Origin: Jannaschia seohaensis
GTDB taxonomy: Bacteria; Pseudomonadota; Alphaproteobacteria; Rhodobacterales; Rhodobacteraceae
Direction of reading: 5' to 3'
Length of the DNA stretch: 64,000 bases
Assembly: GCF_900116765.1 (NCBI RefSeq)
Contig: NZ_UETC01000001.1
Coordinates: forward strand, 248,001 to 312,000
Shown: in pieces, positions 4,785-21,949 of the stretch
Layout of the letters: each line of letters begins with the position of its first letter
Numbering within the stretch: the stretch's first letter is position 1
The notes under the pieces: generated by a model
What the model was told of the DNA's origin: nothing
The model's input: the letters and a program-made list of their open reading frames with translations, nothing else
Databases searched by the model: none
Translations under genes and position numbers: made by a program

Positions 4785-5071
4785 TGTGCGTCCTCCAGGG
4801 CCTTCGCGCCTTCCGCCATCGCTTCCAGGGTCTCCTGCGCCTCGCCGAGGCCGCGCAGCGCTTCCAGCGTCTCGGCGGCTTCGGCTTCGTCGATGACGGC
4901 CATGGCGAAGCCGACATGGATCAGAACCCAGGCGCCGATCAGCGCATTGAGGTCAGCGCCTGCCACGGGCACGACCGAGACCTCGCGGCGGACGCCCGAG
5001 ATTTCGGCCATCGCCATCTGTCGGCTTGCGTCGGTAATGGCCACGATCTGGCCGGGGATGCCGAGGCACAT
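4781..5071 (-). CDS. hypC: Hydrogenase maturation chaperone HypC, C-terminally extended
   Basis: HypC partners HypD in carrying the Fe(CN)2CO group and then guards the hydrogenase large subunit. The N-terminus MCLGIPGQIV with the essential Cys2 is diagnostic. At 96 residues it is somewhat longer than the usual 75-90; the extra C-terminal part is an alanine/glutamate-rich helix. The beta-barrel core (VSVVPVAG, WVLIHVGFAM) is normal. It overlaps hypD by four bases. It is distinct from hupF in the same cluster, which is the second HypC-family member dedicated to HupL. Confidence 0.94.
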   Translation of the reverse strand: MCLGIPGQIVAITDASRQMAMAEISGVRREVSVVPVAGADLNALIGAWVLIHVGFAMAVIDEAEAAETLEALRGLGEAQETLEAMAEGAKALEDAQ

Positions 5072-5075
5072 GGGC

Positions 5076-6542
5076 TCAGTCCTCCTTTTGGGTGGCGTGG
5101 GGCTCGATGCCGTAGCGGTCGAGCTTGGCGCGCAGGCCGACGCGGCTGAGGCCCAGCTCGGCGGCGGCGCGCGACTTGTTCCAGGTCAGCCGGGTGAGCG
5201 TCTCGCGCAGGATGCGCATCTCCATCATCTCGACCCGGTCCTTGAGCGTGCCGTCTAATGTGCCCACATCGGCCATCCGGTCGGCGCCCGCCTCGTGCGG
5301 CGCGGCCTGGAGGATGTGGCGGGAGATCAGCTCCGGCCCCAGCGTCATGTCCTGCGCCAGGATCAGCATCCGCGTCACCTCGTTCTTGAGCTCCGGCAGG
5401 TTGCCGGGCCAGTCGTACCCCTCCAGAAATTCCAGCGCCGCCGTCGACAGGCCGCCGGCGGGCTTGCCATGTTCCGAGGCGGCGTCCTGCACGAAGCGTT
5501 CGGCCAGTAACGCGATGTCGCCGGGGCGGCCGCGCAGGGGCGGCAGGGCCAGCTCCGTGACCGAGAGGGTGAAGAACAGATCGGTGCGAAAGCGGCCCTG
5601 GGCCACCGCCTCGCGCAGATCGCGGTGGGAGCCGGCGATGACGCGGGGGGTCGCGGTCAACGTTTCGTGCCCGCCCACGGGTTGGAATGCGCCCTCGGTC
5701 AGGATGCGCAGCAGCGCGATCTGCATCTCGGGGCTGAGCGTGTCGATGCCGTTGAGGAACAGCGTGCCCCGGTCCGCCTTTTGCAGCAGCCCGACGCGCG
5801 CCTGCTGGCCGGTCGACACGCCGCGTTTCACCCCGAAGAGCTCGGCGGCGAGCGGCCCGTCGGGCAGGCCAGCGCAGTTGATCTCGTGAAAGGGGCGGTC
5901 GGCGCGCAGTGAGCCATAGTGCATCGCGCGGGCCAGGTCGGCCTTGCCGGTCCCGGGCTCGCCCGTCAGCAGGACCGGCACGTCGAAACTGGCGAATTGC
6001 CGCGCCAGGGCGATCACCGGGTTCAGCGCGGAATTCGGCCCCCGCAGCACCCGGTCGAAGCCCAGCCCCTCCTGTAAGACGCGGCGCCGGTCCTCCAGCT
6101 TTTCCGAGGCGGTGGTCCCGAGATAGCGCATCTCCAGCGTCATCCGCTCATGCTCGCGCGAGAGCTCGAACAGGCGGGCGGCGTTGCGCACCGCCATCAG
6201 GAGTTGGTCGGGATGCCAGGGCTTGGTAATGAACTGGTAGATGCCTGCGGCGTTGATCGCGTCGATCATGTCCGAGGTGTCGGTATAGCCGGTGACGATC
6301 ATGCGCACCGTCTCGGGCCAGCGGTCGCGCACCTCGGTCAAGAGTTCGATGCCGGTCTTGCCGGGCATCCGCTGGTCCGAGACGATGACCTGGACCCAGT
6401 GCTCCTCCATCAGCGCCCAGGCCTCGGCCGCGTTGGCGGCGGTGAGGACGGCGAAGTCGTCCTCCAGCGCCATCGACATGGCCATGGTCGAATGTGGCTC
6501 GTCATCGACGACCAGCACGGTGGGGAGAGAGCGGGCCGCCAT
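5076..6542 (-). CDS. hupR: Response regulator HupR, NtrC family, with degenerate ATPase motifs
   Basis: HupR is the response regulator that activates hupSL transcription and is controlled by the kinase HupT. It has a receiver domain (about residues 8-120; acidic DD13-14, phospho-acceptor Asp56 in IVSDQRMPG, Lys107 in FITKPW), an AAA+ domain (about 165-390) and a C-terminal Fis-type helix-turn-helix ([20 protein letters not shown]). The Walker A lysine is kept (GEPGTGKA, 194-201). The sigma-54 contact loop GAFTGA is replaced by GVSTGQ (241-246) and the Walker B acidic pair is replaced by Asn264-Gly265 (TLFLNG). This fits reports that R. capsulatus HupR works with sigma-70 RNA polymerase rather than sigma-54. 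The 488-residue frame is intact. It sits between hypB and hypC as in R. capsulatus. Confidence 0.93.
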
Positions 6543-7382
6543 CTAGCCGGCCGCCTTCATCGGGCGCTTGGCAGCGGCCCGGGTGGTGAGCCAGTCGATC
6601 CAGGCGGCCATCCCCTCGCCGGTGCGGGCGGAGACCCGGAGGATGTCGATCGTCGGATTCACCCGGCGCAGGTTCGCCTCATGGAGGTCGAGATCGACAT
6701 CGCAATGCGGCGCGAGGTCGATCTTGTTGAGGATGGCGAGGCTGGCGGCGGTGAACATGTCCGGATATTTCAGCGGCTTGTCCTCGCCCTCGGTTATCGA
6801 GAGGATCGCGACCTTGGCGTCCTCGCCCAAGTCGAAGGCGGCGGGGCAGACGAGGTTGCCCACATTCTCGATGAAGAGAGTGGTGCCGGGGGCGGGGTCC
6901 AGGTGGTCGAGCGCAAGGCGCACCATATGCCCGTCCAGGTGACAGCCCTTGCCGGTATTGACCTGCACGGCGGGCGCGCCGGTGGCGCGGATGCGGTCGG
7001 CGTCGTTGGTGGTCTGCTGGTCGCCCTCGATCACGGCGACGGGCGCGTCCATCGCGCGGATCGTGGCGCAGAGCAGCGTCGTCTTGCCCGAGCCGGGGGA
7101 GGAGACGAGGTTGACGGCGAGACTGCCCAGCGCGGCGAGGCGGAGTCGATTGGCGGCCGCTTAGCGGTCGTTCTGGCTCAGGATCCCGGTCTCGATCTCG
7201 ATCAGCCGTTCCTGGCTCATGCCCGGGACGGAGACGCCGGCGGGGCCGTGACCGCAATGGATGTCGCCATGCGCGTGGTGATGATGATGGTCGTGATCGT
7301 GGTCGTGACGGTGGTCGTGACGGTGATGGGCGTGGTCATGCCCTTCGACCGTGCCATCGCCGCATCCGCAAACCGTGCACAT
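6543..7382 (-). pseudogene. hypB: Hydrogenase nickel incorporation GTPase HypB, interrupted by one in-frame TAA
   Basis: HypB is the GTPase that, with HypA, delivers nickel to the hydrogenase large subunit. The reading frame starts [10 protein letters not shown] at an ATG overlapping the hypA stop, has a histidine-rich nickel-storage segment (many HD/HH repeats, residues 15-45), then ...ILSQNDR, a TAA codon at 7161-7163, and continues in the same frame with [12 protein letters not shown] and the GTPase domain: Walker [39 protein letters not shown] and the NKID motif. The stop replaces one residue (usually Tyr or Leu in relatives) in an otherwise full-length protein of about 279 residues. The first 73 codons would give only the metal-binding tail. 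An internal ATG at 7052 lies after the P-loop, so reinitiation there could not restore GTPase activity. Confidence 0.9.
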
Positions 7383-7714
7383 CAGATGACCTCCATGTCC
7401 TTGATCCTCATCTCGTCGCCCCCCTCCGGGACGAGCTTGCCGCCGCCGCAGGTCGGGCAGGGGTCCAGCCTGCCGTCGAGCTCCACCGTCTCGGCGCAAT
7501 AGAAGCAGAGCGCGCGGCCCGGCAGGTCGATCATCTCCAGCGCCGCGCCTTCGGCCTTGGAGCCGCGCATCACGACCTCCCAGGCGAAGCGCAGCGCGGG
7601 CTTCTCGACGCCGGCGAAGCGGCCGATCTCCAGCCGGACGCGGGTGACGCGCGTGACGTCCTCGCCGGCGGCGGCCTGGTCCACGACCCGGCGAATGCCT
7701 TCGCAGAGCGACAT
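7382..7714 (-). CDS. hypA: Hydrogenase nickel metallochaperone HypA, N-terminus disturbed
   Basis: HypA binds nickel and passes it to the hydrogenase large subunit together with HypB. The body is normal: MSLCEGIRR at the start, the long strand [19 protein letters not shown], two zinc-binding CxxC pairs (CFYCAET and CPTCGGG) and the end [13 protein letters not shown]. HypA proteins begin Met-His-Glu-Met-Ser-Leu, and His2 is a nickel ligand. Here the DNA reads ATGCATGGATGTCG, one base short of a frame that would encode Met-His-x-Met-Ser-Leu. As written, the frame is fused to the end of hupK and the only usable local start is the second ATG (7714), which lacks the His. The 110 residues listed match the family length minus three. 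The stop overlaps hypB by four bases. Confidence 0.88.
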
Positions 7715-8610
7715 CCATGCATGGCTGACCTCCCCCAGAGAAACGGATCTCAGCCGAACGGGGCTGCACGGGTCGAGTATGTCAAGCATCAGCGGCCCGA
7801 GACCCGCCTTGGCGGGCGGAAGCGTCGCAAGCGCGCGGTCCAGGATGCCCCCGGGCGTGAGCAGTTGGTCGGTCGGCGTGATCCGGGCGAAGTCGGTGAC
7901 GCGGCCGCACGCGACGGTCAGACTGATGCCGTAGGTACCCCGCGCGGCGGGGGCGATGGCCTCGCCGGACTGGACCTGGATCGCGGGCAGCGCGCCTGTC
8001 AGCGCCGCCTCCACGTCCCAGAGTCGGGCGGCGGCGCGCCAGAGCGGCCCCCGGCCCCGGCGCGCCTCGATCCAGCGCATCGCGGGCTTGTCCATGTGGC
8101 GCGCGGCAACCGAGTTCTCGCAGGGCGCGCCGTCGCAGAGGCGGGCGCGGTCGACCGGGGGCAGGCCTTCGGCCACGGCTTCGCCCGGGCGAAGACGTCG
8201 TCGATGCGCGCCAGGATGGCGGCGGCGCCCTGGCCCGAGGTCAGGAACGCCTCCATCGCGGCGGGCGTCTCGGGCGCGCGGCCCGCCGGTCCGAAGACGG
8301 CGCGGGCTACGGCCGGCCCCCCTTCTCGCCAATCCGGCGGGAGCGGGTGGGGTGCGCATCCGAAGAACCCCGGCCAGGTCACGAAAAGCTTGAGCAGATG
8401 GTCGCGCAGTATCTCGGTCGCGATCCCCTGGGCATCGGGCGCTTCGCCCAGCGCGGCCGCAACGGCCGCGCCCTGGGCGCAGCGGCACAGCGAGAAGATG
8501 CGCGGCAGCACCGCCCGGACCTCGGCGACGGGCCGCCCCAGCACCAGCCGGTCCACGGCCACGCCGGGCGCGGCCTGCACGGTCAGGGTAGGGTGGCCTG
8601 CGTCCAGCAT
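7715..8610 (-). pseudogene. hupK: Hydrogenase expression/formation protein HupK, frameshifted
   Basis: HupK is a HupL-related assembly protein (large-subunit-like, without the nickel ligands), proposed to be a scaffold for active-site assembly. The first part reads [12 protein letters not shown]...[12 protein letters not shown] in one frame and the rest continues in another frame from [16 protein letters not shown] through [14 protein letters not shown] to [12 protein letters not shown]...GEVSHA. The switch lies near 8187-8189 and a single added base in the short G/C run restores one frame. The 5' end overlaps hupJ by 28 bases. At the 3' end the frame runs straight into hypA without a stop; adding the one base apparently missing at 7715-7716 would create a TGA directly after SHA and free the hypA start. 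Two lesions are therefore inferred here. Confidence 0.82.
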
Positions 8611-9392
8611 CCGTCCGCTCCGACGCCGGGATGCGCCTGCGACAGAGCGCCCGTCACGACCGCGCGGCGGGTGGGCGCGGCGGGCGCCTCGGGCGGCGGC
8701 GCCAGTTCCGCCTCGCGGGCGGCGCGGATATCGGTGGCGCGGTCGGTGCCTGCGCGGTGGGCGGGGTCGAAGAGCGCCCGCATCACCGCCTCGGCCACCT
8801 CGACCGCGCTGGCCTGGTCCTTGAACTGCCCCATCGGCGAGAACAGCGAGCAGGCCTTGTAGCCGCCGATCTGCTCGCGGGTGTTCTGGATGAACTCGTA
8901 GGCCCCGGAGGGGAAGTCGATCACCTCCTTCTCGCCCGCGATCAGATCCGACCAGTCGTCGCCATCGGGCAGCAGGATCAGGTTCATGAACCACTGGCTG
9001 ACCAGCACGCCCAGGAGGTTCCCCTGATGGGCGCGGAAGCCCACGGCCTGCACCTTGAGCGCCTTGTTGACGATCGGCACGTCGCGCATCTTGCCGTGGA
9101 AGACCTCGGTGAAGTCGGCCACGAGCCGGTCGGTGACGGCCTTGACGCGGGCCGCCTCGCGCAGGGCGTCGGCCCCCGCGTCGGACAGGACCATGAATTG
9201 CGACTTGTCACCCGAGCAGGTCGGGCAGGACCAGTCATGCGGCAGGTCGGTGAAGGGTGTGCCCGGTTCGACCTGACGGAAATCGTCCCCCTGGGCTGGA
9301 TCGTAGGGCGTCCAGCAGATCTTGCACTCCATGATCGCCTGGGGGCTGATCCGGTCCTTGGCGCCCAGGAAGCTGCCTTCGAAGCCGCTCAT
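8583..9392 (-). CDS. hupJ: Hydrogenase assembly protein HupJ: rubredoxin-HybE fusion
   Basis: This 269-residue protein joins a rubredoxin (Cys23-x2-Cys26 in [10 protein letters not shown] and Cys56-x2-Cys59 in WSCPTCSGD) to a HybE/HupJ-type chaperone domain ([21 protein letters not shown], then [17 protein letters not shown] and [19 protein letters not shown]). HybE-type proteins assist hydrogenase small- and large-subunit maturation; the rubredoxin is thought to protect or provide electrons during aerobic or microaerobic assembly. In R. leguminosarum these are separate genes (hupI, hupJ), in R. capsulatus they are fused as here. The start overlaps the hupH stop (ATGA). The C-terminal tail (about 45 residues) is alanine/proline-rich and low in complexity. 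No damage is seen. Confidence 0.9.
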
Positions 9393-10210
9393 CGGATCGC
9401 CTCCAGCACGTCGCGCAGGCGTTCGGCGCTGTCCATCAGATCCTCCAGCCCGGCCTGGGCGACCTCGGGCATGTCGGTGACTTCGAACGTGTCTAGGATC
9501 AGGCTGTCCATCGAGTTGAAGAACTGCACCCGCCAGACATGGGGCAGCGCCGTCGCCCGGCAGCGGCAGTTGCCGTAGCCCCGCGACAGAATGTCGGTCG
9601 CGCCCTGGCCCAGCCGCGTCTCCAGCCAGGCGAGATCGCCCTCGGTATGCGGCAGGAGCGTCAGGTTGACGACATGCAGATCCGCGGAGTTGTGGCCCGC
9701 CGATTTGTCGTGAAGCTCTGCCAGCAGCGACGGGGCGTTGAAGACGCTCGCGTCCTTGGGCAGGTCGCGGGCGGGGAGGATCGGCTCGAAGGCGCGGCTG
9801 CGGGCGGCCTGGGGCACACGGCCCACCTCGATGGCGTCGAGCCCAGGGCCGGTGACGCCCCAGAGGCCGGCGAAGACGCTCTCCTGCACCGCGAGGGCGG
9901 GCAGGCCGCGGATTTTCATGGCGACTTCGCCCTCGCCAATGGTCTCGGCGACGAGGCGGCGGTTGGCGGGATCCAGACCGCGCAGGTCGACGGTCTCGTT
10001 GGCGCCGCCCTTGGCGACCCGGTCGGCGGCCTCCACGAGGCTCGTCAGCAGGGCCAGAGCGGGGGCCAGGCCCTCCGCGTCGTCGATCTCGGGCAGGCGG
10101 GCCGTGTAGGTCCGCATGTCGCCCGGAAGCTCCATATAGGCCAGCTCATTGTCCGGCTCGGGTTGGGAGCCGGGGCCGAAGCCGATGGGGGGCAGTTGGA
10201 AATTGTCCAT
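9389..10210 (-). CDS. hupH: Hydrogenase expression/formation protein HupH (HyaF family)
   Basis: HupH belongs to the HyaF/HupH family, which is needed for making an active uptake hydrogenase and is linked to small-subunit maturation. The protein starts MDNFQLPPIGFGPGSQ and is 273 residues, close to family length. Family-typical segments are AYMELPGDMRTY near residue 25, GEVAMKIRG and VQESVFAGLWGV in the middle, and the C-terminal ILSRGYGNCRCRATALPHVW followed by VQFFNSMDSLILDTFEV. The open frame reaches further upstream, but that part is hupG in another frame; the chosen ATG is 5 bases after the hupG stop. Confidence 0.9.
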   Translation of the reverse strand: MDNFQLPPIGFGPGSQPEPDNELAYMELPGDMRTYTARLPEIDDAEGLAPALALLTSLVEAADRVAKGGANETVDLRGLDPANRRLVAETIGEGEVAMKIRGLPALAVQESVFAGLWGVTGPGLDAIEVGRVPQAARSRAFEPILPARDLPKDASVFNAPSLLAELHDKSAGHNSADLHVVNLTLLPHTEGDLAWLETRLGQGATDILSRGYGNCRCRATALPHVWRVQFFNSMDSLILDTFEVTDMPEVAQAGLEDLMDSAERLRDVLEAIR

Positions 10211-10215
10211 GGGGC

Positions 10216-10596
10216 TCACTCCGCGGCGACGGGGGTGGAGGTCAGATGCGACAGGCGGGCGACATAGTCGTCCCAGTCGCGCACCTTGGGGATGCCGCCG
10301 ACCATCCGGCCGTCGCGGAACACGATGAGGGACGGCGTCTTGAAGACGACCGTCTCCTTGCGGAGCGCTTCCTCCATCGCGTCGCCCGCCACGGCGCAGT
10401 CGAAGCGGCGCTGGAAGGCGGCGTGCAGTTCCGGCAAGATCACGGCGACATCGGCGCTCTCGAGATTGCGCTTGGGGTCGCCGGGGACGAAGACGACATG
10501 CAGGCCGGGCCGCGAGGCCCATGCGGCGCAGGCTTCCAGCGTCTCGAAGCGGGGATATCCCAGCTCACTCGTCAGGCGGTCGATCAGGGGGTGCAT
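10216..10596 (-). CDS. hupG: Thioredoxin-like hydrogenase chaperone HupG (HyaE family)
   Basis: HupG/HyaE proteins have a thioredoxin fold without the redox cysteine pair and bind the twin-arginine leader of the hydrogenase small subunit before export. The 126 residues contain the fold-typical HVVFVPGDPKRNLESADVAV, VAGDAMEEALRKE and TPSLIVFRDGRMVGGI stretches. No CxxC is present, as is normal in this family. The gene lies between hupF (12-base gap) and hupH (5-base gap). Its natural client, the HupS leader, is frameshifted in this sequence. Confidence 0.88.
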   Translation of the reverse strand: MHPLIDRLTSELGYPRFETLEACAAWASRPGLHVVFVPGDPKRNLESADVAVILPELHAAFQRRFDCAVAGDAMEEALRKETVVFKTPSLIVFRDGRMVGGIPKVRDWDDYVARLSHLTSTPVAAE

Positions 10597-10608
10597 GGGG
10601 TCTCCTCC

Positions 10609-10929
10609 TCAGGCGGTCGTCTTGCCCGCGCTCTGCGCGGCGGCGAGATGGGGGGGCAGGCTTGGCGTGCGGGCGTGGAGGTCGGCGAACGCGCCATTCC
10701 CGTCGCCCCCCGCCATGACGGAGCGCAAGCCCTCCAGCGCATCGGCGATCAGCCGGGCCTCGTCCGCCGAGATCACTTCGCGGGCGCAGCCTAGCTGGGT
10801 CAGCACCCAGGTGCCGGGGGCGAGCGGGCCGGTCAGCGTCAGGTCGATCAGGTGCTCGGCGGTGCCGTCGGTGGCCCGGCCGGCGATGCCATCCTGGCCG
10901 AGCACTTGCATGGGGACGCCTACGCACAT
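10609..10929 (-). CDS. hupF: HypC-family hydrogenase chaperone HupF
   Basis: HupF is the second HypC-type chaperone in the cluster. It binds the HupL precursor and is reported in rhizobia to protect hydrogenase in the presence of oxygen. The start MCVGVPMQVLGQDG has the essential Cys2 after Met removal; eight codons in frame upstream are ignored because Cys must be residue 2. The core strand APGTWVLTQLGCAREVI matches HypC. It is 106 residues, longer than HypC, with a C-terminal extension typical for HupF. It lies between hupD and hupG on the same strand. Confidence 0.9.
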   Translation of the reverse strand: MCVGVPMQVLGQDGIAGRATDGTAEHLIDLTLTGPLAPGTWVLTQLGCAREVISADEARLIADALEGLRSVMAGGDGNGAFADLHARTPSLPPHLAAAQSAGKTTA

Positions 10930-10956
10930 TTGCGGCCCTCCGGTTCGGCTCACATC

Positions 10957-11565
10957 TCAGTCGGCCTGGGCCGGGAAGAACCGGGCGTCGCCGGTGCGAC
11001 AGGCCTCGGCCTCGGACGGCCGGCCCGCCTCGTAGGTATCGTGGCGGATGGAGGCATCGGCCAACTCGCCCTGCGTGGTGCCTTCGGTCGAGGGAAAGCC
11101 CCGCTCGGCCAGGAAGCGCACGGCGATCTCGACCGCCTCGGGGATGCGCGCGGCGACGGGGGCGCGGAGGTCGCCGCCGTAATCCTCCAACTCCTCCGGC
11201 TGGCAGCCGATCAGAAGCAGCGTCTCGGGGCAGTAGCCCATCAGCTCGGCCGTCGCGATCACGTCCTGAAAGCCGGTCTGATGCAGCGACATCTTCTTGG
11301 CCCCCAGAAAGCGGGGCACCTCGTCGCCCTCGACGATCTTCATGTCGCCGGGGGTGAGGCCGTAATCGACCGCGTCGAACACGACCAGCACGTTGGCGGC
11401 CTCCAGGAAGGGCAGCAGATAGAGCCCCTGCGTGCCGCCATCGAGCAGCGTCACCTCGGGGCCGAAAGCGCGGGTGGCGGCGAGATGCTCGACGCAGCGG
11501 ACGCCGAAGCCCTCGTCGGCCCAGAGCACGTTGCCGATGCCCAGGATGAGCGCGGTGTCGGTCAT
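10957..11565 (-). CDS. hupD: Hydrogenase maturation endopeptidase HupD
   Basis: HupD is the nickel-dependent endopeptidase that removes the C-terminal tail of HupL after the active-site metal is in place. The start ILGIGNVLWADEGFG carries the metal-binding Glu; LVVFDAVDYG carries the Asp; KKMSLHQTGFQDVI carries the His. At 202 residues it matches family length. A good ribosome site (GGAGGAG-like) precedes the ATG. Its predicted cleavage target is visible in hup[11 protein letters not shown] followed by a 16-residue tail. HupV, which lacks such a tail, would not be a substrate. Upstream lies a 275-base AT-rich gap, so the gene probably starts a transcript or follows a processed junction. Confidence 0.93.
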   Translation of the reverse strand: MTDTALILGIGNVLWADEGFGVRCVEHLAATRAFGPEVTLLDGGTQGLYLLPFLEAANVLVVFDAVDYGLTPGDMKIVEGDEVPRFLGAKKMSLHQTGFQDVIATAELMGYCPETLLLIGCQPEELEDYGGDLRAPVAARIPEAVEIAVRFLAERGFPSTEGTTQGELADASIRHDTYEAGRPSEAEACRTGDARFFPAQAD

Positions 11566-11840
11566 TCGGGTCTCCTCCTTCTCGGTGCGCTCTCTCCCGG
11601 AGGCGCGGCGTTGCCATCGAACTTACCGGAGGAAGGGCGAATTGGCCGGAGAATGACCGGAGCGGCTGGAGTCGAGTAAAACTAAATTATTACAGTAATT
11701 AAGGAGGAATATTGCGGGTTGCGTGAGATGCCAAAATGGCTGAACGATTGTCACTTGTCGGAAAAAAGCGACAGATAGATTTCCATAACGCAAGACGGGC
11801 GCCGCAGCGCCCATCCACTCCGCCGACGAATCGGAAGGGC
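11566..11840 (-). promoter_or_regulatory. AT-rich spacer between hupC and hupD, possible internal promoter
   Basis: This 275-base gap is the largest within the hydrogenase operon and contains no reading frame that looks like a gene. On the minus strand the order is: hupC stop, a 6-bp GC hairpin (11797-11812), then a markedly AT-rich stretch (about 11675-11790) in otherwise GC-rich DNA. That stretch includes a short perfect inverted repeat, TGTCG-8-CGACA around 11756-11773, and a palindrome ATTACAGTAAT at 11688-11698. Such a stretch could hold an internal promoter or an IHF-type bending site for hupDFGHJK-hyp transcription. No clear FNR box (TTGAT-N4-ATCAA) was found. Confidence 0.4.
11797..11812 (-). 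terminator. Candidate hairpin after hupC
   Basis: A perfect GGGCGC/GCGCCC stem with a 4-base loop lies about 30 bases beyond the hupC stop. There is no T-run directly behind it on the minus strand, so it may be a weak terminator or an mRNA-stabilising hairpin that separates the abundant hupSLC message from the maturation genes. Confidence 0.3.
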
Positions 11841-12623
11841 TCAATCCACCCGGTCGTCCTTGAACGTGCGCGTCCCCGAGATCATCGTCGACACCATGGA
11901 CTGGCGGCTCATGATGTCCTCGCGGATGGCGGCGTAGATGTGGATCATCATGAAGACGACGATGAACCACATGCCCAGATGGTGGGCCTGGTACAGCACC
12001 ATCGTGTTGCCGACCCAGGCGATCAGCGGCCCGAACAGCATGTCCGCCCAGGATCCCTGGCCCAGACCTTCGGCATAGAGCGCGAAGCCGGTCACGGTCA
12101 TGAAGGTCATGCCCACGGTCATGAACATGAACATCGCGACCTGCGCGAGCGGGTTGTGGCCCAAATATTTCCGGGGCTCGGAGTCGAGGAACATGTACCA
12201 GCGTGCCTCGAACCAGACTTCCTCCCACCAGTCCTTGCGCCAGAACGGGATGTAGAACATCTGCCGCGCATGGCTGTTGCCCGCGAAGGCCCAGTAGATG
12301 CGGCCGAAGAAGCCCACGGTCATCACCATGGCCGCCGCGAAATGGGCGAAGCGGATATAGCCGAAGAGGAACTGATGCGTGGCCTCCCCCATCTCGATGG
12401 AAGGGAGCGGCGAGCCGATCAGGTAGCCGGTCACGCAGAGCGTCAGGATTGCGGCCGCGTTGATCCAGTGCCAGAGCCGCACCGGCACCTCGTAGACATA
12501 GACCGAGGTGGCGCGTCTGACCGTGGCGCGGTCGGCATCGGTGGCGTCGCGGGTGAGCGGCGAGGTCGAGTAGACATCGACCCGTCCGCCCGCCGATGCG
12601 GGGGCGGGGACGTTATCCTTCAT
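11841..12623 (-). CDS. hupC: Ni/Fe-hydrogenase b-type cytochrome subunit HupC
   Basis: HupC is the diheme cytochrome b that anchors HupSL in the membrane and passes electrons from H2 to the quinone pool. The 260-residue protein has the four expected membrane helices, with heme-binding histidines in VPVRLWHWINAAAILTL, FAHFAAAMVMTVGFFGRIYW and YQAHHLGMWFIVVFMMIHIY. The conserved loop SHARQMFYIPFWRKDWWEEV is present. About 35 residues precede the first recognisable segment; the ATG at 12623 overlaps the small upstream gene by 11 bases. The gene is intact, unlike those for its partners hupS and hupL. Confidence 0.95.
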   Translation of the reverse strand: MKDNVPAPASAGGRVDVYSTSPLTRDATDADRATVRRATSVYVYEVPVRLWHWINAAAILTLCVTGYLIGSPLPSIEMGEATHQFLFGYIRFAHFAAAMVMTVGFFGRIYWAFAGNSHARQMFYIPFWRKDWWEEVWFEARWYMFLDSEPRKYLGHNPLAQVAMFMFMTVGMTFMTVTGFALYAEGLGQGSWADMLFGPLIAWVGNTMVLYQAHHLGMWFIVVFMMIHIYAAIREDIMSRQSMVSTMISGTRTFKDDRVD

Positions 12624-12882
12624 CGCGCACCCCCCGGAGGGCGACCAGGGCGGCCACCGCGATCAGGGCGATCCCCAGAACGAGGCCATGGGCCGAGGCG
12701 TGGGCCGCCTGGGACAGGGGGGCATGGCCGCCATGGGCGAGCGCCGCGCCGGGGGAGAGGAGCGCGAGGGCGGCGGCGAGGACGACCCGCCCCGGCCCTG
12801 CGCCGGGGCCTCTGACGGCACCGGGTGCGCGGGGGGGGGAGGTCCCGGCGCAAGGCCGGGACGCGAAGGTCTGCTTGGTCAT
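12613..12882 (-). CDS. Small membrane protein between hupL and hupC
   Basis: An 89-residue frame starts at an ATG preceded by AGGAGAGAG, ends 11 bases inside hupC and begins 14 bases after hupL, so it is probably translated with the operon. It has a low-complexity Pro/Gly/Arg-rich N-terminus (residues 1-31), a hydrophobic segment VVLAAALALLSPGAALAHGG that resembles a cleavable signal or a membrane helix, a short His-containing linker (AHGGHAP, AAHASAH) and a second helix LVLGIALIAVAALVALRG. I do not recognise a family. It is much shorter than HupE/UreJ nickel permeases (about 190 residues). A small accessory helix of the HupC membrane anchor is one possibility. Confidence 0.6.
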   Translation of the reverse strand: MTKQTFASRPCAGTSPPRAPGAVRGPGAGPGRVVLAAALALLSPGAALAHGGHAPLSQAAHASAHGLVLGIALIAVAALVALRGVRDEG

Positions 12883-12895
12883 GTCTCTCTCCTCC

Positions 12896-14694
12896 TCAGC
12901 GGACCTTGACGACGGTGGCAAGCTTGTCGCCGTCGGGCGACATGACGTGGGTCGAACAGGCGAGGCAGGGGTCGAAACTGTGTAGCGTGCGCAGCACCTC
13001 CACCGGCTCCTCGGGGCGCTCGACCACGGTGTTCATCAGGCTGGCCTCGAAGGGGCCGATATTGCCGGCCGTATCGCGGGGCGAGCCGTTCCAGGTGGTC
13101 GGCACGACGCATTGGTAATTGTCGATCCGCCCCTCCTTGACGCGCACCCAATGGCCCAGCGCGCCGCGCGGCGCTTCGGTCATGCCGACGCCCTTGGCCT
13201 CGGCGGGCCAGGTCGAGGGATCCCACTTGGCGATGTTCGCCGTGCTCTGGTCGCCGTTCATCACGTTGCGCACCAGCTTGTCGAAGAAGTGCTTTTGCAG
13301 CCGTCCGCAATATTCCGACTCGAGCGCCCGCGCCGCAGTGCGCCCCAGGGTCGAGAACACGGCCTCCAGCGGCAGGTCCATCGTCTTGAGCAGGCCGTCG
13401 ACCTGATCCTTGATGTCTTCGTGGCCCTTGGCGTAGCCGATCACGTAGCGGGCGAGCGGGCCGACCTCCATCGCGTGGCCGCGCCAGCGGGGCGCCTTGA
13501 TCCAGGAGTATTTGGCCGCCTCGTCGAGCTGCTCGATATGGGTCTTGGTGCCCTTGTGGTTCGGTCCCAGCTCGAAATTGGCCTCGGTGACGCCGTCCCA
13601 GGGATGCAGGCCCTTCCCGGGCTCTCCGTAGGTAGACCAGGAATGATCCACAAATTCCTGCACCTGCTCGGTGTCGCGCACGTCCACGTCGTGCACCGTG
13701 CTCAGGTCGCCATTGATGATCGCGCCGCGCGGGAGGTGCAGCTGTTCGGCGGAGAAGTCGTTCGGATGCTCGGGGATGTCGCCATAGGCGAGGCAGGCCT
13801 GCGACGACAGGCCCCCGCCATAGAGCCAGGTCTTGTAGAAGCCGCCGATGGCGATCACGTCCGGGATATAGACATTCTTGTTGAACTCGATGCACTTGTC
13901 GACGATCGACGACACTAGGTTCAGCCGCTCCATGTTGATCGCGCCGGTCGCGCCCACGCCGTCGATATTGATCGGGCAGGGCACGCCGCCGACCAGCCAG
14001 TTCGGATGTGGGTTCTTGCCGCCGAAGACGGCATGCACCTTCACGATCTCCTTCTGGAGGTCGAGCGCCTCCAGGTAGTGGGTCGTGGCCATCAGGTCCG
14101 CCTCGGGCGGCAGCTTATAGGCCGGGTTGTCCCAATAGCCGTTCTTGAAGAGGCCGAGCTGGCCGGATTCCACGAACTTCTTCAGCCGGTTCTGAACATC
14201 GCGGAAATAGCCGGGGGGGACGACAGCGGGTGGCTGGGCGACACGGCCTGTTGCAACTCGCTGGTCGCCTTCGGGTCCGCGCGCAGCGCGTTGACCGGGT
14301 TGACCCAGTCCAGCGCGTGCAAGTGATAGAAATGCACGATGTGGTCGTGGATCTGCAGGTTGAGCTGCATGATATTGCGGATCGAGTTCGCGATGTCCGG
14401 GATGGTGATCCCCAGCGCGTCCTCGATCGCCCGCACACTGGTCAGGGCGTGGGTGCCGGTGCAGACGCCGCAGATTCTCTCGGTGAAGGCCCAGGCGTCG
14501 CGGGGGTCGCGGCCTTTCAAAATCACTTCGAGTCCCCGCCACATTGTGCCGGTGGAGACCGCGTTGGTGATCATGTTGTTCTCGTCGACATTCACCTCGC
14601 AGCGCATATGCCCCTCGATCCGGGTCACGGGGTCGATGACGACGCGCTTGGTGGTGTTGTCGAGGGTGTAGCCGTTGGGCGTCTGGATCGCCAT
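12896..14694 (-). pseudogene. hupL: Uptake [NiFe]-hydrogenase large subunit HupL, single frameshift
   Basis: HupL holds the [NiFe] centre that splits H2. The 5' part ([18 protein letters not shown]..., about 160 codons) carries [10 protein letters not shown] and the first ligand pair in [11 protein letters not shown] (Cys75, Cys78). The rest lies in another frame from [16 protein letters not shown] to the end, with the second ligand pair in [10 protein letters not shown] and a 16-residue C-terminal tail ([16 protein letters not shown]) for HupD cleavage. The frame changes at a run of seven G (14213-14219; C on the coding strand); eight would restore a continuous protein of about 598 residues that matches the family. 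All other conserved regions are intact. As written, translation would end about 170 codons in. It lies 3 bases after hupS. Confidence 0.93.
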
Positions 14695-14697
14695 GGA

Positions 14698-15797
14698 TCA
14701 GGCCTCCTCGTTCTCTGAGACTTTGGTTTGGGTCTTCTTCTGGGCCTGCTTGAGTGCGGAGATCGCGGCGTGGGCGGCGATGCCGCCCCCAACCACGCCC
14801 GCGGCGGCGAGGCCCACCTGGTCGGCATTCGCCTCGACCCCGAACTGCGTGAGGTCCGTCACCCGGTCGTAGAACGACCCCTGATCCCAGAACCCGTCCT
14901 CGGAGCAGCCGATGCAGCCATGGCCGGACTGGATCGGGAAGGACGCCCCCTCGTTCCAGCGCACCGTGGAGCAGGCGTTGTAGGTCGTCGGGCCCTTGCA
15001 GCCCATCTTGTAGAGGCAATAGCCCTTCCGCGCCCCGTCATCGTCCCATTCCTCGACGAACTGGCCCGCGTCGAAATGGGGACGGCGGTAGCATTTGTCG
15101 TGGATGCGCTGGGAATAGAACATCGCCGGGCGGCCCTGGCGGTCGAGTTCGGGCAGGCGGTCGAAGGTCAGCATGTAGGTGATGACGCCGGTCATCACCT
15201 CGGCGATGGGCGGGCAGCCCGGCACCTTGATGATCGGCTTGTCGGTGATGACCTTGTGGACCGGCGTGGCCTGGGTCGGGTTCGGCTTGGCGGCCTGGAC
15301 GCAGCCATAGGAGGCGCAGGCTCCCCAAGAGATGACGGCCTTGGCGTGCTCGGCGGCTGTCTTGAGTTTCTCCACGAAGGGCTTGCCGCCGGAGATGCAG
15401 AACATGCCGTCCTCGGCCAGCGGCGGGTTGCCCTCGACCGCGAGGATGTAGTTGCCCTTGTAGCGCTCGATCGTGTCCATCATCGCCGCTTCGGCCTGGT
15501 GGCCCGCGGCGGCCATCAGCGTGTCGTCATAGTCCAGCGAAATCATGCTGAGGACCACGTCCTTGGCCAGCGGATGGGCCGAACGGATGAAGCTCTCGGA
15601 GCAGCAGGTGCATTCCAGCCCATGGACCCAGATGACCGGTGTGCGGGGCTTCGTTTCCATCGCATGGGCGATCTTGGGGACGAAGGCCGGGCCGAGGCCC
15701 AGCGCCGCCGCGGTCAGGGAGCAGTATTTCATGAAGCTGCGCCGGGTGATCCCCCCTGGCTGCGCATGACCTCGTAGAAGGTTTCGATCTGGTTCAA
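14698..15797 (-). CDS. hupS: Uptake [NiFe]-hydrogenase small subunit HupS, frameshift in the Tat leader
   Basis: HupS carries the three Fe-S clusters that relay electrons from HupL to HupC. The mature part is intact from [21 protein letters not shown] (proximal cluster) to [20 protein letters not shown] and the C-terminal membrane helix ([18 protein letters not shown]). The leader is split: [16 protein letters not shown] is in one frame starting at a TTG (15797) with a strong GGAGGAGGGC ribosome site, while [20 protein letters not shown] is in another. One added G in the run at 15751-15756 would give [10 protein letters not shown], the normal twin-arginine motif. As written, the ribosome would stop after about 22 codons; initiation at the internal ATG (15732) would give a protein without its Arg-Arg pair and therefore without Tat export. 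Confidence 0.92.
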
Positions 15798-15995
15798 GGC
15801 GGGCCCTCCTCCGGTTCGGGTGGGGCGCGCATGGGGTGCCCCCTCGGAGTCCAGCTTCTACGGTGTGCCGGTGTGTGCGGAAGCGATCTTGGCAGCCCTG
15901 GCGAAACGGCCGTAAGTCACCCGTAGGGCGGGGATTTTCCCCGCCGCCCCCGAATTGGGCCGGAAGCGGCGTAACCGGCTCGTCCGGTCTAGCAG
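15798..15995 (-). promoter_or_regulatory. hupSL promoter region
   Basis: This 198-base gap between hypF and hupS is where the HupR-dependent hupS promoter lies in R. capsulatus. It contains a perfect inverted repeat GGCGGGGA-TTT-TCCCCGCC at 15927-15945, about 50 bases after the hypF stop, which could terminate or attenuate the hupTUV-hypF transcript. No T-run follows it on the minus strand. I looked for the reported HupR target TTG-N5-CAA and found only an imperfect copy (TTGGGCCGGAA, 15955-15965), so the HupR site is not fixed from sequence. Confidence 0.5.
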
Positions 15996-18224
15996 TCAGC
16001 CGCTTTCCATTCGCGCCAGCGCGACGAGCGCCTGCCCGAAGGCGAGTCCGCCGTCATTGGCGGGCACCTCGCCCGGGGGGCAGAGACGCAGCCCGTCGAG
16101 CCGCGCCGTCACCCGCGCGAGCAGCGAGACGTTCTGGAAGCAGCCCCCCGACAGCGCGACCGTGTCGGTGCCCGCCGCGTCGCAGGCGGCGCGGGCGGCG
16201 CTGGCGAAGGCCTTGGCCAGCCCCGCCTCGAAGCGCGCGGCGATGGTCTCGGGCGGTGCGCCGGCGGCGAGGTCGCGGGCGAGCGCGTCGAACATCGGGG
16301 CCGGGTCGATCTCCGGGCCGAGGCCGAACGGGTAGGGGCGCGCGTCGCCGCCCCGCTCCGAGAGGGTCTGGAGCGCCATGGCCGCCTCGCCCTCGAAGCT
16401 CTGGCGCTCGGGGCAAAGCCCGAGACAGGCCGCCACCGCGTCATAGAGCCGCCCGGCGGAGGACGACAGCGGCGCGTTCACCCCCGCCATCGCGGCGGCG
16501 CGCAAGGGGGCGAGGGGCAGATGGCCGAAGAGCCGCTCCGCCAGCGCCCCATGCCCCGCCGCGTCCAGCCGGACGACGGCGTTGCGCCAGGGGTCCGCCT
16601 GAGCGCGGTCACCGCCGACCAGGGGCGCGGGGGTCAGGTGGGCGGCGCGCGCCACGCCCGCGTAGCCGCCCACCAGCACCTCTCCGCCCCAAACGGTGCC
16701 ATCGGGGCCCAGACCCAGCCCGTCGAGCACCAGCCCTACGGCCGTCGCGCCGCGCCATCCCGCTTCGCCCAGGGCGGCGGCCATATGCGCGTGGTGGTGC
16801 TGGACCTCGAAGACGGGCACCCCCAGCGCGTCGGCCCGCGCGTGCCCGTGCCGCGTGGCGCGGAACTCGGGGTGGAGGTCGACCGCCACCGCCTCGGGCG
16901 CATGGCCCAGGAGCTCGGCGAGGTCGGCATCGGCGCGCAAGAATTCCTCCAGCGTCAGCGGATCGTCGAGATCGCCCAGATGGTGCGAGAGCATCGCCTG
17001 CCCAGCCTTGGTCAGGCAGATCGCGGATTTCAGCTGCCCGCCGAAAGCCGCGACCTGGGCGTGGGGCAGGCCCGGGGGCAGTTCGAGCGTGCCGGGCACG
17101 CGCCCCCGGGCGCGGCGCAGGACCATGGGCGGCGCGGCGATCTCGACCCCGTCGTCGAGGCGGCGGGCGATCTCCCGGTCGTGCATAAGGAAGCCGTCGG
17201 CGAAGCCCGACAGCTTCTCCCGCGCCTCGTCGTCGCCGATCGCTTGAGGCTCGCCCGAGAGGTTGCCGGAGGTCATCACCAGCGGGCGACGGGCGGCGTC
17301 GAGCAGCAGATGATGCAGCGGCGTGTAGGGCAGCATCCAGCCCAGACGTCCCTGGCCCGGTGCGACCCCCTCGGGCAGAGGCGCGGCCTTGGGCAGTAGG
17401 ACGATGGGCGCGGCCGGCTCGGTGAGGCGCGCGCGGGCGGTGTCGTCCAGCACCGCATGGCGCGCGACGGTTTCGAGCGGCGCCATCAGGGCGAAAGGCT
17501 TGGCCGGACGGCGCTTGCGCTCCCGCAGGAGCGCGAGGGCGGCGGGATTGGTCGCGTCGCAGGCGAGGTGGAAGCCGCCCAGCCCCTTGATCGCCACGAT
17601 CCGGCCCGCGCGCAGCCAGCGGGCGGCCGTGGCGATGGGGTCGGCGTTCAGCCGCGCGCCGTCCGCCTCGCACCAGGCCTGCGGCCCGCAGGCGGGGCAG
17701 GCGATGGGTTGGGCGTGAAAGCGGCGGTCGGCCGGGTCTTCGTATTCCGCGCGGCAGGCGGCGCACATCTCGAAGGGGGCCATGGTGGTGCGCGCGCGGT
17801 CATAGGGCAGCGCCCGCAGGATCGTGAGGCGCGGGCCGCAATTGGTGCAGTTGGTGAACGGGTAGCCGAAGCGACGGGCGCTCGGGTCGCGGATCTCGGC
17901 GGCGCAGTCGGCGCAGGTGGCGGCGTCGGGCGTCACCCGCGTCTCGGCCCCCGCCGCGCCGCTGGCGGCGATGGTGAAGTCCCCGCAAGGAGGCAGGTCG
18001 GCGTCCGTTCCCTCGACCGCGTCGACGCGGGCGAGCGGCGGCGCTTCGGCAGCCAGCGCGGCCTCGAAGGCGGCGAGGCCCTCCCCGGCGGCTTCGACCA
18101 GCACGCCCTCGGCGTCGTTCAACACCGTTCCCGTGACCCCGTGCCGCCGGGCGAGCTCCCAGACGAAGGGGCGGAAGCCGACCCCCTGCACCTGTCCGCG
18201 CACCCGGATGCGGCGGCCCAGCAT
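15996..18224 (-). CDS. hypF: Carbamoyltransferase HypF
   Basis: HypF makes the carbamoyl group for the CN ligands from carbamoyl phosphate and ATP and hands it to HypE. All domains are present in its 742 residues: acylphosphatase (about 1-90, [18 protein letters not shown]), two zinc fingers (CADCAAEI...CTNCGP and CAACRAEY...CPACGP), a YrdC-like nucleotide-binding domain ([17 protein letters not shown]) and a Kae1-like C-terminal domain ([29 protein letters not shown]). It starts one base inside the hupV stop (TGATG), so it is coupled to hupUV. It is the longest gene of the cluster and intact, which matters when judging whether the neighbouring lesions are random errors. Confidence 0.96.
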
Positions 18225-19654
18225 CAGTGGACGGTGCAGACCATGCAGGGGTCGAAGCTGTGCACGATGTGCTGCACCGAGAGCGGCGTGTCGCAGCCTT
18301 CGGGCGCGAGCGCCCCCACCAGAGCCTGTTCCAGGGGGCCGGGCACGCCGTCCGCGTCGCGGGGCGAGAAGTTCCAGGTCGTGGGCGCCACGATCTGGTA
18401 GTTGGCGATGCGCCCGTCCTCGATGCGGATCCAGTGGCCCAGCGCGCCGCGCGCGGCTTAGGTCAGGCCGACGCCTGTCGCGGCGTCAGGCAGGGTCCAG
18501 TCGCCCATGAGGGAGTGCGAGGGGTCGACTCCCGCGACCTGCGCCTCCAGCCAGATCTGAGTGCGCGCGATCTCCAAGAGGCGTGCGGCGACCCGGGCGC
18601 GCACGCCTCCCTCGGTGGCCAAAGCCTGGGCCAGCGGGTGCCCGTCGACTGCCTGGCGCGCCAGCGCGCCGGTCTCGGCGGGGGCGCCCGCGAGGCGCGA
18701 GGCCTTGCACCAGGAATAGGCCGAATCGCGCATCTCCTCGTCCGGGACCGTCACGCCGTCGAGCGGATGCGCCGCCTCCCCCATCATCCAGCTATGGGCC
18801 AGATCCTCGCGCACGGCGTCCGCGTCGGCGGGGGTCACGGATCCCGCCTGCCACAGCCCGGCTCGCGTGGCCCGGCCCTCGGCGCCGGGATGGGCCCCCC
18901 AGCTGAGATAGCGGCGCGGGCCGACGCCCGCGGCGGCGAGCCCCAGGTCGCGGGCGATGGTCAGGAACAGGCCGACATCGCCGGTCTCCCAGGCGTCCAG
19001 GGCGTACAGCGTCTCTAGCGCGGCGAACTCCTCCAGCGGGGCGCCGAAGGTCTCCCGCTCCAGATGGCGGCGGAAGGCCCGCAGCGTGGAGGTCATACGG
19101 ACCCGGTCGCGCGCGTCCGGGGCGCGGGTGACCCCGGCCGGCTGGATGGCGAGCGTGTGGAGCCATTTGCCGCCCAGCGTGCCGGTGATGTGCATCAGCG
19201 CCGCCCGCGCCTCGACCATGGCGCGCAGGCCGGAGCCCTGGGCCGCGGTGAACCGCTCGACCGCGCGGGCGTGCCAGGGGCGTCCGGTATAGGCCGGACG
19301 CGCGAAGTCGAGCATGAAAAACAGCGTGAAATGGGTCACGTGGTCGGCCAGGTTCTCGACCCCGTGCAAGATCGCGGCCACCCGCGCGCCCATGGGCGGC
19401 ATCCGGGCCCCTGCCGCGTCGGCCAGGGCGAGGGCGGCGGCGGCGGATTGGCTGATGGAGCAGATGCCGCAGATCCGGGGCGTCACCGTCAGCGCGTCGC
19501 GCGGGTCGCGCCCGGCCATCATCGCCTCGAAGCCGCGAAACAGCGGGGAGTTGGCATAGGCGGCGGCCACGCGCCCGTCCTCGATCTCCAGCCGCACCTC
19601 CAGGTCGCCTTCGATGCGGTTGAACGGCCCGACGAGAAGGCGGTGCGCGGTCAC
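18224..19654 (-). pseudogene. hupV: Regulatory hydrogenase large subunit HupV, one in-frame TAA
   Basis: HupV is the large subunit of the H2-sensing hydrogenase that signals to HupT. It begins at a GTG overlapping the hupU stop (GTGA) and reads RLLVGPFNRIEGDLEVRLEI, then TPRICGICSISQSAAAALAL. The frame reaches GDWTLPDAATGVGLT, meets TAA at 18458-18460, and continues in the same frame with AARGALGHWIRIEDGRIANY to FDPCMVCTVH and a TGA. The stop stands where relatives have Glu, a single G-to-T change from GAA. The protein ends right at the final metal-ligand His with no tail, as expected for sensor hydrogenases that are not processed by HupD. Truncation at the TAA would remove the last 78 codons, including both C-terminal nickel ligands. 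Confidence 0.93.
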
Positions 19655-20642
19655 GAGCGCTCCCGCCGGGGTTGGGGGGCGATGCGGACGCGGTCGGCGC
19701 GGGCATTGGTGTCGATGCGCTTGGGCGTGGCGGCCTTGGAGAGCGAGGACAGCGCCATGAACCACGCCTTGGGCATGTCGGTGGGCAGGCCCACCGACAT
19801 GCCGGCGATCTTTGGCGTCTCGGTAAAGGTCGACTTGGGGCTCTCGAACTCGGGGGCGGTGCAGGCGATGCAAGGGTAGCCCCCCGCGTGCAGGAGCCGC
19901 CGCCGTTCCAGGGCCGGATGTTGCAATCGCCCACCGCCTGGGTGCCGATGCAGCCCAGATTCTCCATCAGGCAGCCCATCTCGGAGAGCTTGGTGGCCGA
20001 GGCCTTGTATTCGTAGAACTCATTCTTGGGGCAGGCGTGGTGGACGAGGTGGTCGGTATAAAAGCGGGGCCGCGCGAAGGAGTCGAGATCGGCCTCGCCC
20101 AAGGCATCGGCGGCCAGCAACAGCAGCGTCTCGGTCACCCAGTCGGGATGGGTCAGGCAGCCCGCGACGTTGATCACGGACCGGCCGGAGCGGGCGCGGA
20201 ACGACCCCGGCAGCAAGCCCCCCGCATGGGTGCCGTCGAACTGCATGCCCATCGCGCCCGAGGGGTTGCCGCCCCCCGCCGTCATCCCCCCGAACGCCGC
20301 GCAGGAGCCGATGGCGACCACGTCACGCGCGTGCGGCGCCAGCGCGGCGAGCCAGTCCATCATCGACCACCCGGTGCCCGACAGCATCTGGAAGCGCCCG
20401 GTGCCGCGCGGGCCGGTGACGACCGAGCCCTCGACGCAGAGTACATCGAGCGGGCGCGCGCCGCTCTCGATCTCGGCAAGCAGGGCGCGCACCTCGCCCC
20501 CCGACGCCTCGGAGAGGGCGGGGTGCCAGAGCAACTCGATTCCCGCATCCGCGAAGAGGTCCAGCACGTTCGGATCCTCGGCGCAGAGCAGCGACATCGT
20601 GCAGCCACCGCAGCCCGCCGATTGCAGTCAGAGCACGTTCAT
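19651..20642 (-). pseudogene. hupU: Regulatory hydrogenase small subunit HupU, early stop plus frameshift
   Basis: HupU is the Fe-S subunit of the H2 sensor. Unlike HupS it has no Tat leader, so it is cytoplasmic. From the ATG at 20642 (overlapping the hupT stop) the frame reads Met-Asn-Val-Leu-stop-LQSAGCGGCTMSLLCAE; the TGA at 20628-20630 sits where relatives have Trp (TGG). Downstream the frame is open through GSCAAFGGMTAGGGNPSG and HHACPKNEFYEYKASATKL to CNIRPWNGGGSC, then the protein continues in another frame with LLHAGGYPCIACTAPEFESP to the end. The frame change lies between about 19880 and 19905, in a G-run or a CTGC repeat. Two independent defects are therefore present. Initiation at the ATG after the proximal-cluster cysteines would lose those ligands. 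Confidence 0.92.
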
Positions 20643-21949
20643 CGCGCATCCTCCGCCAGCGGCAGCTCCAACCGGAAGACCGTGCCGCCTTCGGGCGGGC
20701 AGGCGACGGCGAGGCGGCCGCCATGCTCCTCGGCGATCTTGTTGCTGATCGACAGGCCCAGGCCGGTGCCGCGCCCGACCGGCTTGGTGGTGAAGAAGGG
20801 ATCGAAGACATGGGCGGCGATGGCGTCGGGGATGCCGGGGCCGTTGTCGCGGACCTCCAGCACGGCCAGGTCGCCGTCTCGGGCGACGGTGACCGTGATC
20901 TCGGGCCGCTCGATCGCCTCCAGCGCGTCATGGGCGTTCTGTACGAGATTCATGACGATCTGCTGCACATGGCCCGGGTTGCCGTGGACGGGCACGGGCG
21001 CGGGGGCGTCGACCCGCGGCACGGTCCCGCCGGAGCCTCGCTCGATCCAGCGTACGGCGGTGGCGGCGACCTGGCCCAGGTCGAAGCGCTCCCGCTCGCC
21101 GGTGCCGTCGGCCGACAGGCGGCGCAGGTCGGCCACGATGTCGCGCACCCGCTCGGCCCCGTCCTGCGCGCCCTCGATGGCGTGGCGCAGGTTGGGAACG
21201 GCGCGGTCCAGCTTCAGCTCGGCTCGCAGCGCGATCAGCTCGGGCCGGGTCGCGCCGGCCTCGACATGAGCGAAATAAGTCTCCAACCGGCCGACATATT
21301 TCTCCAGCGCGTGGGTATTGGCGTAGACGAAGCTGATCGGGTTGTTGAGTTCATGGGCCACGCCGGCGAGCAGCCGGCCAAGGGCGGCCATCTTCTCGTT
21401 GCGCACCAGCAGGGTCTCCGCCTCCTTGAGCTGGCGGTGGCTGGTTTCAAGCTCGGCATAGGCGGCGCGCGGCTCGCCCAGGGGGCGGCCGATCAGCACC
21501 GCGCCCTCCAACCGGCGGCGCCCGTCGAGCAGTGGCGAGAGTGCCACGTCCAGCGGCTCGCCCTCCGCCAGCCGTGCCTCGAAGGAGACGGGCCTCGGAT
21601 CGTAGCGCAGCCGGTCGAGCGCGGCGGCGACAGTGGCTCTGCCATCGGGGTCGAAGAGATCGGCCGCGGGAAGCCCCGCCGGGTCTCCGCCGATCCGGTC
21701 GGCAAGCGAGGCGGAGGCGCGGGTCACGCGCCCGTCTCGGCCCAGCACCGCCATCGCGTCGCCGACCGAGCCCAGGATCGAGCTGAGCAGCCGGCGCACC
21801 TCGTCCAGCGCGGCGTTCTGCGCCTCGAGCTTGTCCTGGTGGGAAGCCAGTTCGGAATAGGTGGTCTCGATCGCGGAGAGCACATCGGACCAGGCCGCAT
21901 CGGAGAGCGCGGCGCGCGGCGTGCTTTCGGCTTCGACCCTGATCGACAT
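20639..21949 (-). CDS. hupT: Sensor histidine kinase HupT
   Basis: HupT is the cytoplasmic kinase that receives the H2 signal from HupUV and phosphorylates HupR; in R. capsulatus the phosphorylated HupR is inactive, so HupT represses hupSL without H2. The 436-residue protein has an N-terminal helix (20-60), a PAS domain (about 60-165), a dimerisation helix with the phospho-acceptor His199 (GVAHELNNPISF), and a catalytic ATPase domain with N box (MNLVQNAHDALE), G1 (EVRDNGPGIPD), F (VFDPFFTTK) and G2 (GRGTGLGLSIS). It begins the hupTUV-hypF unit and overlaps hupU by four bases. It is intact although both sensor subunits are broken. Confidence 0.95.
   Translation of the reverse strand: MSIRVEAESTPRAALSDAAWSDVLSAIETTYSELASHQDKLEAQNAALDEVRRLLSSILGSVGDAMAVLGRDGRVTRASASLADRIGGDPAGLPAADLFDPDGRATVAAALDRLRYDPRPVSFEARLAEGEPLDVALSPLLDGRRRLEGAVLIGRPLGEPRAAYAELETSHRQLKEAETLLVRNEKMAALGRLLAGVAHELNNPISFVYANTHALEKYVGRLETYFAHVEAGATRPELIALRAELKLDRAVPNLRHAIEGAQDGAERVRDIVADLRRLSADGTGERERFDLGQVAATAVRWIERGSGGTVPRVDAPAPVPVHGNPGHVQQIVMNLVQNAHDALEAIERPEITVTVARDGDLAVLEVRDNGPGIPDAIAAHVFDPFFTTKPVGRGTGLGLSISNKIAEEHGGRLAVACPPEGGTVFRLELPLAEDAR

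Follow-up and report, generated by a model that had tools for sequence, protein, structure and literature searches.

Apparent recent decay of a complete uptake hydrogenase cluster and its H2 sensor in Jannaschia seohaensis

A cluster of uptake hydrogenase (hup) and hydrogenase maturation (hyp) genes in the bacterium Jannaschia seohaensis is complete in its gene content, and its reading frames are interrupted at eight sites. The locus raises the question of whether the pathway is decaying or whether the sequence is faulty. The cluster lies in a stretch of 64,000 nucleotides that was analysed as a whole (the window; positions 248001-312000 of the 986,580-base contig NZ_UETC01000001.1, assembly GCF_900116765.1). 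It is internal to the contig and not positioned at its end; the genome comprises 4.84 Mb in 37 contigs and is 99.99% complete. The sequence evidence argues strongly for a real and recent pseudogenisation of the complete HupSL uptake [NiFe]-hydrogenase cluster and of the HupUV H2 sensor, so that H2 oxidation and H2 sensing are probably both lost.

The cluster spans 19.35 kb of the minus strand, from 21949 to 2599 of the window, and contains 19 genes in the complete order hupTUV-hypF-hupSLCDFGHJK-hypAB-hupR-hypCDE. The genes, in the direction of transcription, are as follows.

20639-21949, minus strand: hupT, sensor kinase of H2 signalling; open, with a 436-residue open reading frame (ORF) 56-60% identical to congeners.
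19654-20642, minus strand: hupU, small subunit of the H2 sensor; broken twice, by a nonsense mutation at codon 5 and by the loss of one base in a G run.
18227-19642, minus strand: hupV, large subunit of the H2 sensor; nonsense codon 5' of the C-terminal DPCMVCTVH motif.
15996-18224, minus strand: hypF; open.
14698-15797, minus strand: hupS, small subunit of the uptake hydrogenase; two bases gained in the leader for twin-arginine translocation (Tat), with the start set by alignment with the starts of relatives.
12896-14694, minus strand: hupL, large subunit of the uptake hydrogenase; two bases gained near residue 152.
11841-12623, minus strand: hupC, cytochrome b subunit; open.
10957-11565, minus strand: hupD, maturation protease; open (TIGR00140, 201.8 bits, cut-off 151.8).
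8583-10953, minus strand: hupF, hupG, hupH and hupJ; open.
7720-8610, minus strand: hupK; -1 frameshift, 3' part fused to hypA, 15-base insertion.
7382-7722, minus strand: hypA; start region shifted and N-terminal MHE lost.
6543-7382, minus strand: hypB; interrupted by a nonsense codon at 7161, before the P-loop GSGKTT.
5076-6542, minus strand: hupR, response regulator of the sigma-54 type; open.
2599-5071, minus strand: hypC, hypD and hypE; open.

Gene by gene, the cluster matches and is colinear with those of two genomes of the same genus (G003 and G018) and one of the same family (G024). All 19 genes are also present, in a rearranged order, in a genome from another genus of the family (G029); the J. 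seohaensis genome itself is designated G000 in these comparisons. HupS and HupL are approximately 85-93% identical to the proteins of the congeners over the aligned pieces. The small subunit is recognised by TIGR00391 (549.3 bits, cut-off 179.5), and the two pieces of HupL are recognised as a NiFe-family large subunit by PF00374 (543.9 and 173.6 bits). The model NF007550 matches both HupL pieces, each below the whole-protein cut-off because each piece is partial. The nearest named HupL matches belong to Paracoccaceae and to other genomes that we take to be of the Rhodobacterales type, and we infer that the enzyme belongs to group 1d of the [NiFe]-hydrogenases. The gene order is that of the Rhodobacter capsulatus type of hup/hyp cluster, and the gene content is also the same, HupT/HupR and HupUV included; the difference is that seven genes are broken here.

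The lesions were located by DNA alignment with the relatives, in which G029 has no row at hupL and hupK, and G024 has none at hupK. Three nonsense codons and five frame-breaking insertions or deletions (indels) affect hupU, hupV, hupS, hupL, hupK, hypA and hypB, and each of them breaks a reading frame that runs uninterrupted in the relatives aligned there (G003, G018, G024 and G029). Chance as the source of the ORF breaks was ruled out: orthologous frames continue on either side of each lesion. Codon 5 of hupU is TGA where the relatives have Trp (within 20622-20636), and one base is missing from a G run near residue 254 (within 19875-19890). The relatives' Glu codon in hupV is replaced by TAA (within 18452-18469), the single TAA inside the PF00374 match of this gene; the codon pair that contains it has several base differences from the relatives. 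Two additional bases in a G run of the hupS leader (within 15745-15761), 5' of the RRSFMK motif, leave the leader start and the RR motif in different frames; the remainder of the gene can be read as an open frame starting at an internal ATG (15732). In hupL, two additional bases in a C run (within 14204-14223) terminate the first fragment at 170 residues and orphan the C-terminal frame. One base is missing from hupK near 8177-8200, where the exact position is ambiguous. Another is missing from the hupK/hypA overlap (within 7708-7723), just downstream of a 15-base insertion (within 7729-7762). The base missing from the overlap removes the hupK stop, fuses hupK to the frame of hypA, and deprives HypA of its MHE start. 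In hypB, a position occupied by His or Tyr in the relatives is TAA (within 7155-7169), upstream of the P-loop.

An earlier, sequence-only reading of the window had placed eight lesions in these same genes, and the comparison with the closest relatives that it had proposed recovers all of them, including the in-frame stops in hupU, hupV and hypB. The five single frameshifts that it described are present as frame-breaking indels, with the amendment that those of hupS and hupL are +2 and that the one at the junction has the further effect of fusing hupK with hypA. The remaining hup/hyp genes are open both as ORFs and in the alignments, as had been stated. The description of the segment at 22-38 kb as free of broken genes fits the ORF map, in which eight of nine tested ORFs have Pfam matches and look open.

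The large catalytic subunit and both sensor subunits are thus interrupted. The motifs named above (for example DPCMVCTVH, RRSFMK and MHE) are presumably signals for ligand binding, export or nickel binding. Translation would yield neither a complete HupL, whose C-terminal ligand cysteines have been shifted to another frame, nor a Tat-exported HupS, nor a complete H2 sensor, and the normal insertion of nickel by HypA and HypB would not take place. A search of the 4.84 Mb genome for a second [NiFe]-hydrogenase large subunit found none, only one set of PF00374 matches, and because of this both H2 oxidation and H2 sensing are probably gone, which agrees with the earlier proposal that enzyme and sensor are both lost. 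The strain would neither oxidise nor sense H2. After the first hit the pathway would have become neutral, with later hits arising from slippage in G/C runs and from point mutation, and the open hup/hyp genes would survive only for want of elapsed time.

The frequency of such lesions elsewhere in the assembly was determined from 520 kb of the same contig searched against G002, G003 and G018, in which 93 gene matches spanning approximately 97.5 kb were aligned. Seventeen of these were flagged automatically, and none was genuine on inspection (seven were viewed as DNA and the rest as protein alignments; two doubtful ones were settled by ORF scores). All 17 were explained by antisense or out-of-frame reference ORFs or by stops 5' of the conserved start. 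Unrelated genes of the assembly therefore do not share the lesion rate of the cluster, and none of the 42 G/C runs of 6-8 bases in the control was found shifted. Under a uniform-rate model, the probability that all eight lesions fall inside the 19.35-kb cluster is 5.6e-7. No lesion was found either in 26 gene matches located 58-89 kb upstream of the window, where two flags were set: one was a stop before a start, and the other, at a match edge, was judged by its position. G/C runs of at least six bases number 20 in the cluster (2599-21949), whereas G003 has 7, G018 has 4 and G024 has 7 in the corresponding clusters, with no explanation beyond the higher G+C content.

Related clusters are rarely broken. 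The comparison covered the best 80 of at least 581 hup loci from GTDB together with G018, G024, G026 and G029. The GTDB loci were retrieved with HupL residues 1-170, so they are biased towards a whole N-terminus, and many contain only part of the cluster. The 80 loci and four relatives yielded three credible lesions in total, including one frameshift each in hypF of L083 and in hupS of L084, the latter a metagenome-assembled genome (MAG). Rhodobacter viridis (L053) has 18 cluster genes without a flag. Flags of the relatives in hupV, hupK, hypB, hypC, hupR, hupF, hupS and hupC were stops before the conserved start (seven were checked by eye), and frame changes in hypC (L089 and L092) and hupV (L080) were set aside as preceding the start. 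The hupJ flags in distant taxa, presumably reflecting a different hupI/hupJ layout, were also set aside.

The age of the decay was assessed from the ratio of nonsynonymous to synonymous substitution rates (dN/dS, omega) and from changes at conserved sites. A two-ratio codon model of six taxa compared this lineage with the rest, given here in this order together with twice the log-likelihood difference (2dlnL). Before the calculation hupU, hupL and hupS were masked or re-read; hupK keeps some out-of-frame codons beside the shift. In the second test, sites constant in all other taxa and changed in one were counted in 45 taxa. In the broken genes, 16 of 1083 otherwise invariant sites are altered here, nine of them in HupL. 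Of 1121 such sites, the sister G003 has 3 altered and G018 has 1, and 41 of the 44 other taxa have at most six changes. The earlier statement that similarity outside the lesions is excellent holds with a slight reservation, as the broken genes already have this excess of changes at otherwise invariant sites.

Several of these results weigh against the decay being real and neutral. Omega is not raised in the broken genes (0.0576 vs 0.054, 2dlnL 0.22), in HupUV (0.0243 vs 0.027, 2dlnL 0.07), or in the open genes without hypE (0.0425 vs 0.0457, 2dlnL 0.26), the intact genes for which the sequence-only reading had proposed this measurement. Only HupSL is nominally raised (0.0474 vs 0.0311, 2dlnL 4.23), as one of four sets tested and uncorrected. 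The J. seohaensis genome ranks third in invariant-site changes: higher counts occur in L117, from Zavarzinia (81 of 1119), and in L050, a MAG of Albidovulum (17 of 1121), and L074 (15) nearly equals it. If the pathway were wholly neutral, the open hup/hyp genes should also have gained such changes, and they have not (8 of 992 here vs 9 of 993 in G003). Three of the five indels clearly fall within G/C runs, a type of sequence at which some sequencing methods make errors. The lesions found are all confined to approximately 75 kb, between 32 kb before the window and position 42 kb within it, making a regional quality problem possible, and the control consists mainly of core genes, so it gauges the error rate rather than the usual pseudogene rate of accessory genes.

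The absence of a shift in omega can be judged from phosphonate transporter genes in the same window. The genes phnC, phnD, phnE1 and phnE2 (38.1-41.3 kb) are fragments with deletions, stops or shifts, and the downstream carbon-phosphorus lyase genes phnG-phnM are open. Omega is 0.098 vs 0.026 for phnCDE (2dlnL 15.2) and 0.046 vs 0.029 for phnG-M (2dlnL 2.87). After trimming of match edges and weak stretches, the values are 0.161 vs 0.023 (31.8) and 0.060 vs 0.027 (9.6), so that the open phnG-M genes are raised too, less than phnCDE. The method therefore detects older decay. Both modules are accessory and decaying, with neighbouring genes open; phnCDE differs from hup in its deeper decay, with deletions, several stops and raised dN/dS. 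Pseudogenes at two stages thus coexist in the window. Approximately 2.5% of random substitutions would be nonsense (computed), and by our own arithmetic the three nonsense changes suggest about 120 neutral substitutions in approximately 18 kb of coding sequence, or about 0.7%, with a wide error. This number is too small to move omega, so that both the lesions and omega point to a recent decay. The contrast with the older phnCDE bears out the early stage of decay proposed from the sequence alone.

It is quite improbable that the cluster is in fact intact and working and that most of its lesions arose as errors of sequencing or assembly, as could happen where coverage is poor. Such errors would account for the near-background dN/dS and for the indels in G/C runs, and runs of at least six bases are denser in the cluster than in the core control (approximately 1.0 vs 0.43 per kb). 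Frame breaks also occur nearby: upstream of the window they affect three genes at a distance of 26-32 kb, and within it a small gene near 42.0 kb. However, errors should also appear in the clean controls, and they explain neither the three nonsense base substitutions nor the excess of invariant-site changes in the broken genes. The lesions are also grouped by module, in hup/hyp and in phnCDE, with ORFs between them that look open, and the cluster lies inside a 986-kb contig. Sequencing error is thus unlikely as the overall cause, and it may affect individual sites. It is barely credible that phase variation through slippage in G/C runs turns the cluster on and off, or that recoding rescues it, so that it still works in part of the population. 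The shifts in hupU, hupS and hupL are in G or C runs of 6-7 bases; to our knowledge, runs of this length are not typical contingency tracts. Run slippage could not reverse the three nonsense codons and the hypA shift, and hupU has two lesions.

A further alternative is that the decay is real and that hydrogenase loss was selected and not merely tolerated. The presence of hypD in just three of 20 genomes of the genus and an independent hupL break in G029 could reflect such selection, as could the lack of nifD or RuBisCO matches here and in the two hup-bearing congeners. The open hup/hyp genes are not enriched in invariant-site changes, which leaves a long neutral phase undemonstrated. However, one hit suffices for adaptive loss and additional hits give no added benefit, and the rarity of the cluster fits gain by transfer equally well: neither G003:C8 nor G018:C4 has its flanks, and the search for an empty site in common found none. 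Selected loss is accordingly considered unlikely, and a recent decay tolerated by the cell is the preferred explanation.

The other broken genes near the cluster were recorded separately. The three upstream of window base 1 (L034-L035, G000:C16 approximately 215.6-221.8 kb, compared with G003) are an ATP-binding cassette ATPase gene that has a gap of 41 bases close to the 3' end, a gene for a binding protein that is out of frame over one stretch and contains an in-frame TAG, and a third gene in which the frame changes. At 41860-42560, a short secreted-type protein with a VPLPA-like C-terminal sorting tail seems to be encoded in two different frames, with the junction near 42045. The cluster adjoins a two-gene molybdenum oxidoreductase (87-2579), whose large gene is of the xanthine/aldehyde oxidase type by domain and has matches of 72-73% identity in G002 and G010 alone within the genus.

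The three genomes of the genus with hypD, including this one, are the same three of 20 that carry a hydrogenase large subunit. Because its flanks are not shared with the congeners' loci, the cluster behaves as an accessory island; in the congeners searched, the genes that border it here do not lie side by side. Relatives of HupL are found on 103 plasmid records. Searches for nifD and RuBisCO gave no match in G000, G003 and G018, and RuBisCO-family matches are present in G024 and G029. The cluster of G029 (L030, G029:C12:1-20000) resembles that of J. seohaensis in having hupL broken in an otherwise complete gene set. It differs in that the break is a single internal loss of approximately 390 residues (about 48-437) with a frame change, an independent event, and that the halves of the cluster are rearranged, with the hupD-hypE block inverted beside hupT; no further lesion was flagged.

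Natural loss of this kind is already known. According to two reports, Rhodopseudomonas palustris CGA009 has a natural hupV frameshift and is unable to use H2, and deletion of HoxJ restores its hydrogenase activity (PMC3918154, PMC13274399). Both strains would have lost function in the H2 sensor naturally; as described there, one sensor gene is hit in CGA009, whereas here the loss is seen early, with many hits, and extends from the sensor to the enzyme and the maturation genes. None of the papers listed in a literature search describes lesions scattered over an entire hup cluster in the family. For two marine isolates with a group 1l hydrogenase, a different group from the one here, another report describes no substantial H2 consumption and leaves non-functional enzymes as a possibility (PMC10305171).

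Surveys infer H2 use from hydrogenase genes, and the high identity of HupS and HupL in a cluster disabled at eight sites means that calls based on gene presence can mislead. The cluster also shows lesions arising well before dN/dS shifts. More tentatively, the H2-oxidation module may be shed in parallel within the family, with the J. seohaensis genome within approximately 1% neutral divergence of the first hit, its enzyme, sensor and nickel-insertion genes hit before the imprint of selection fades, and G029 representing the state after a separate event. If this were true, the order and tempo of the loss could be read from relatives.

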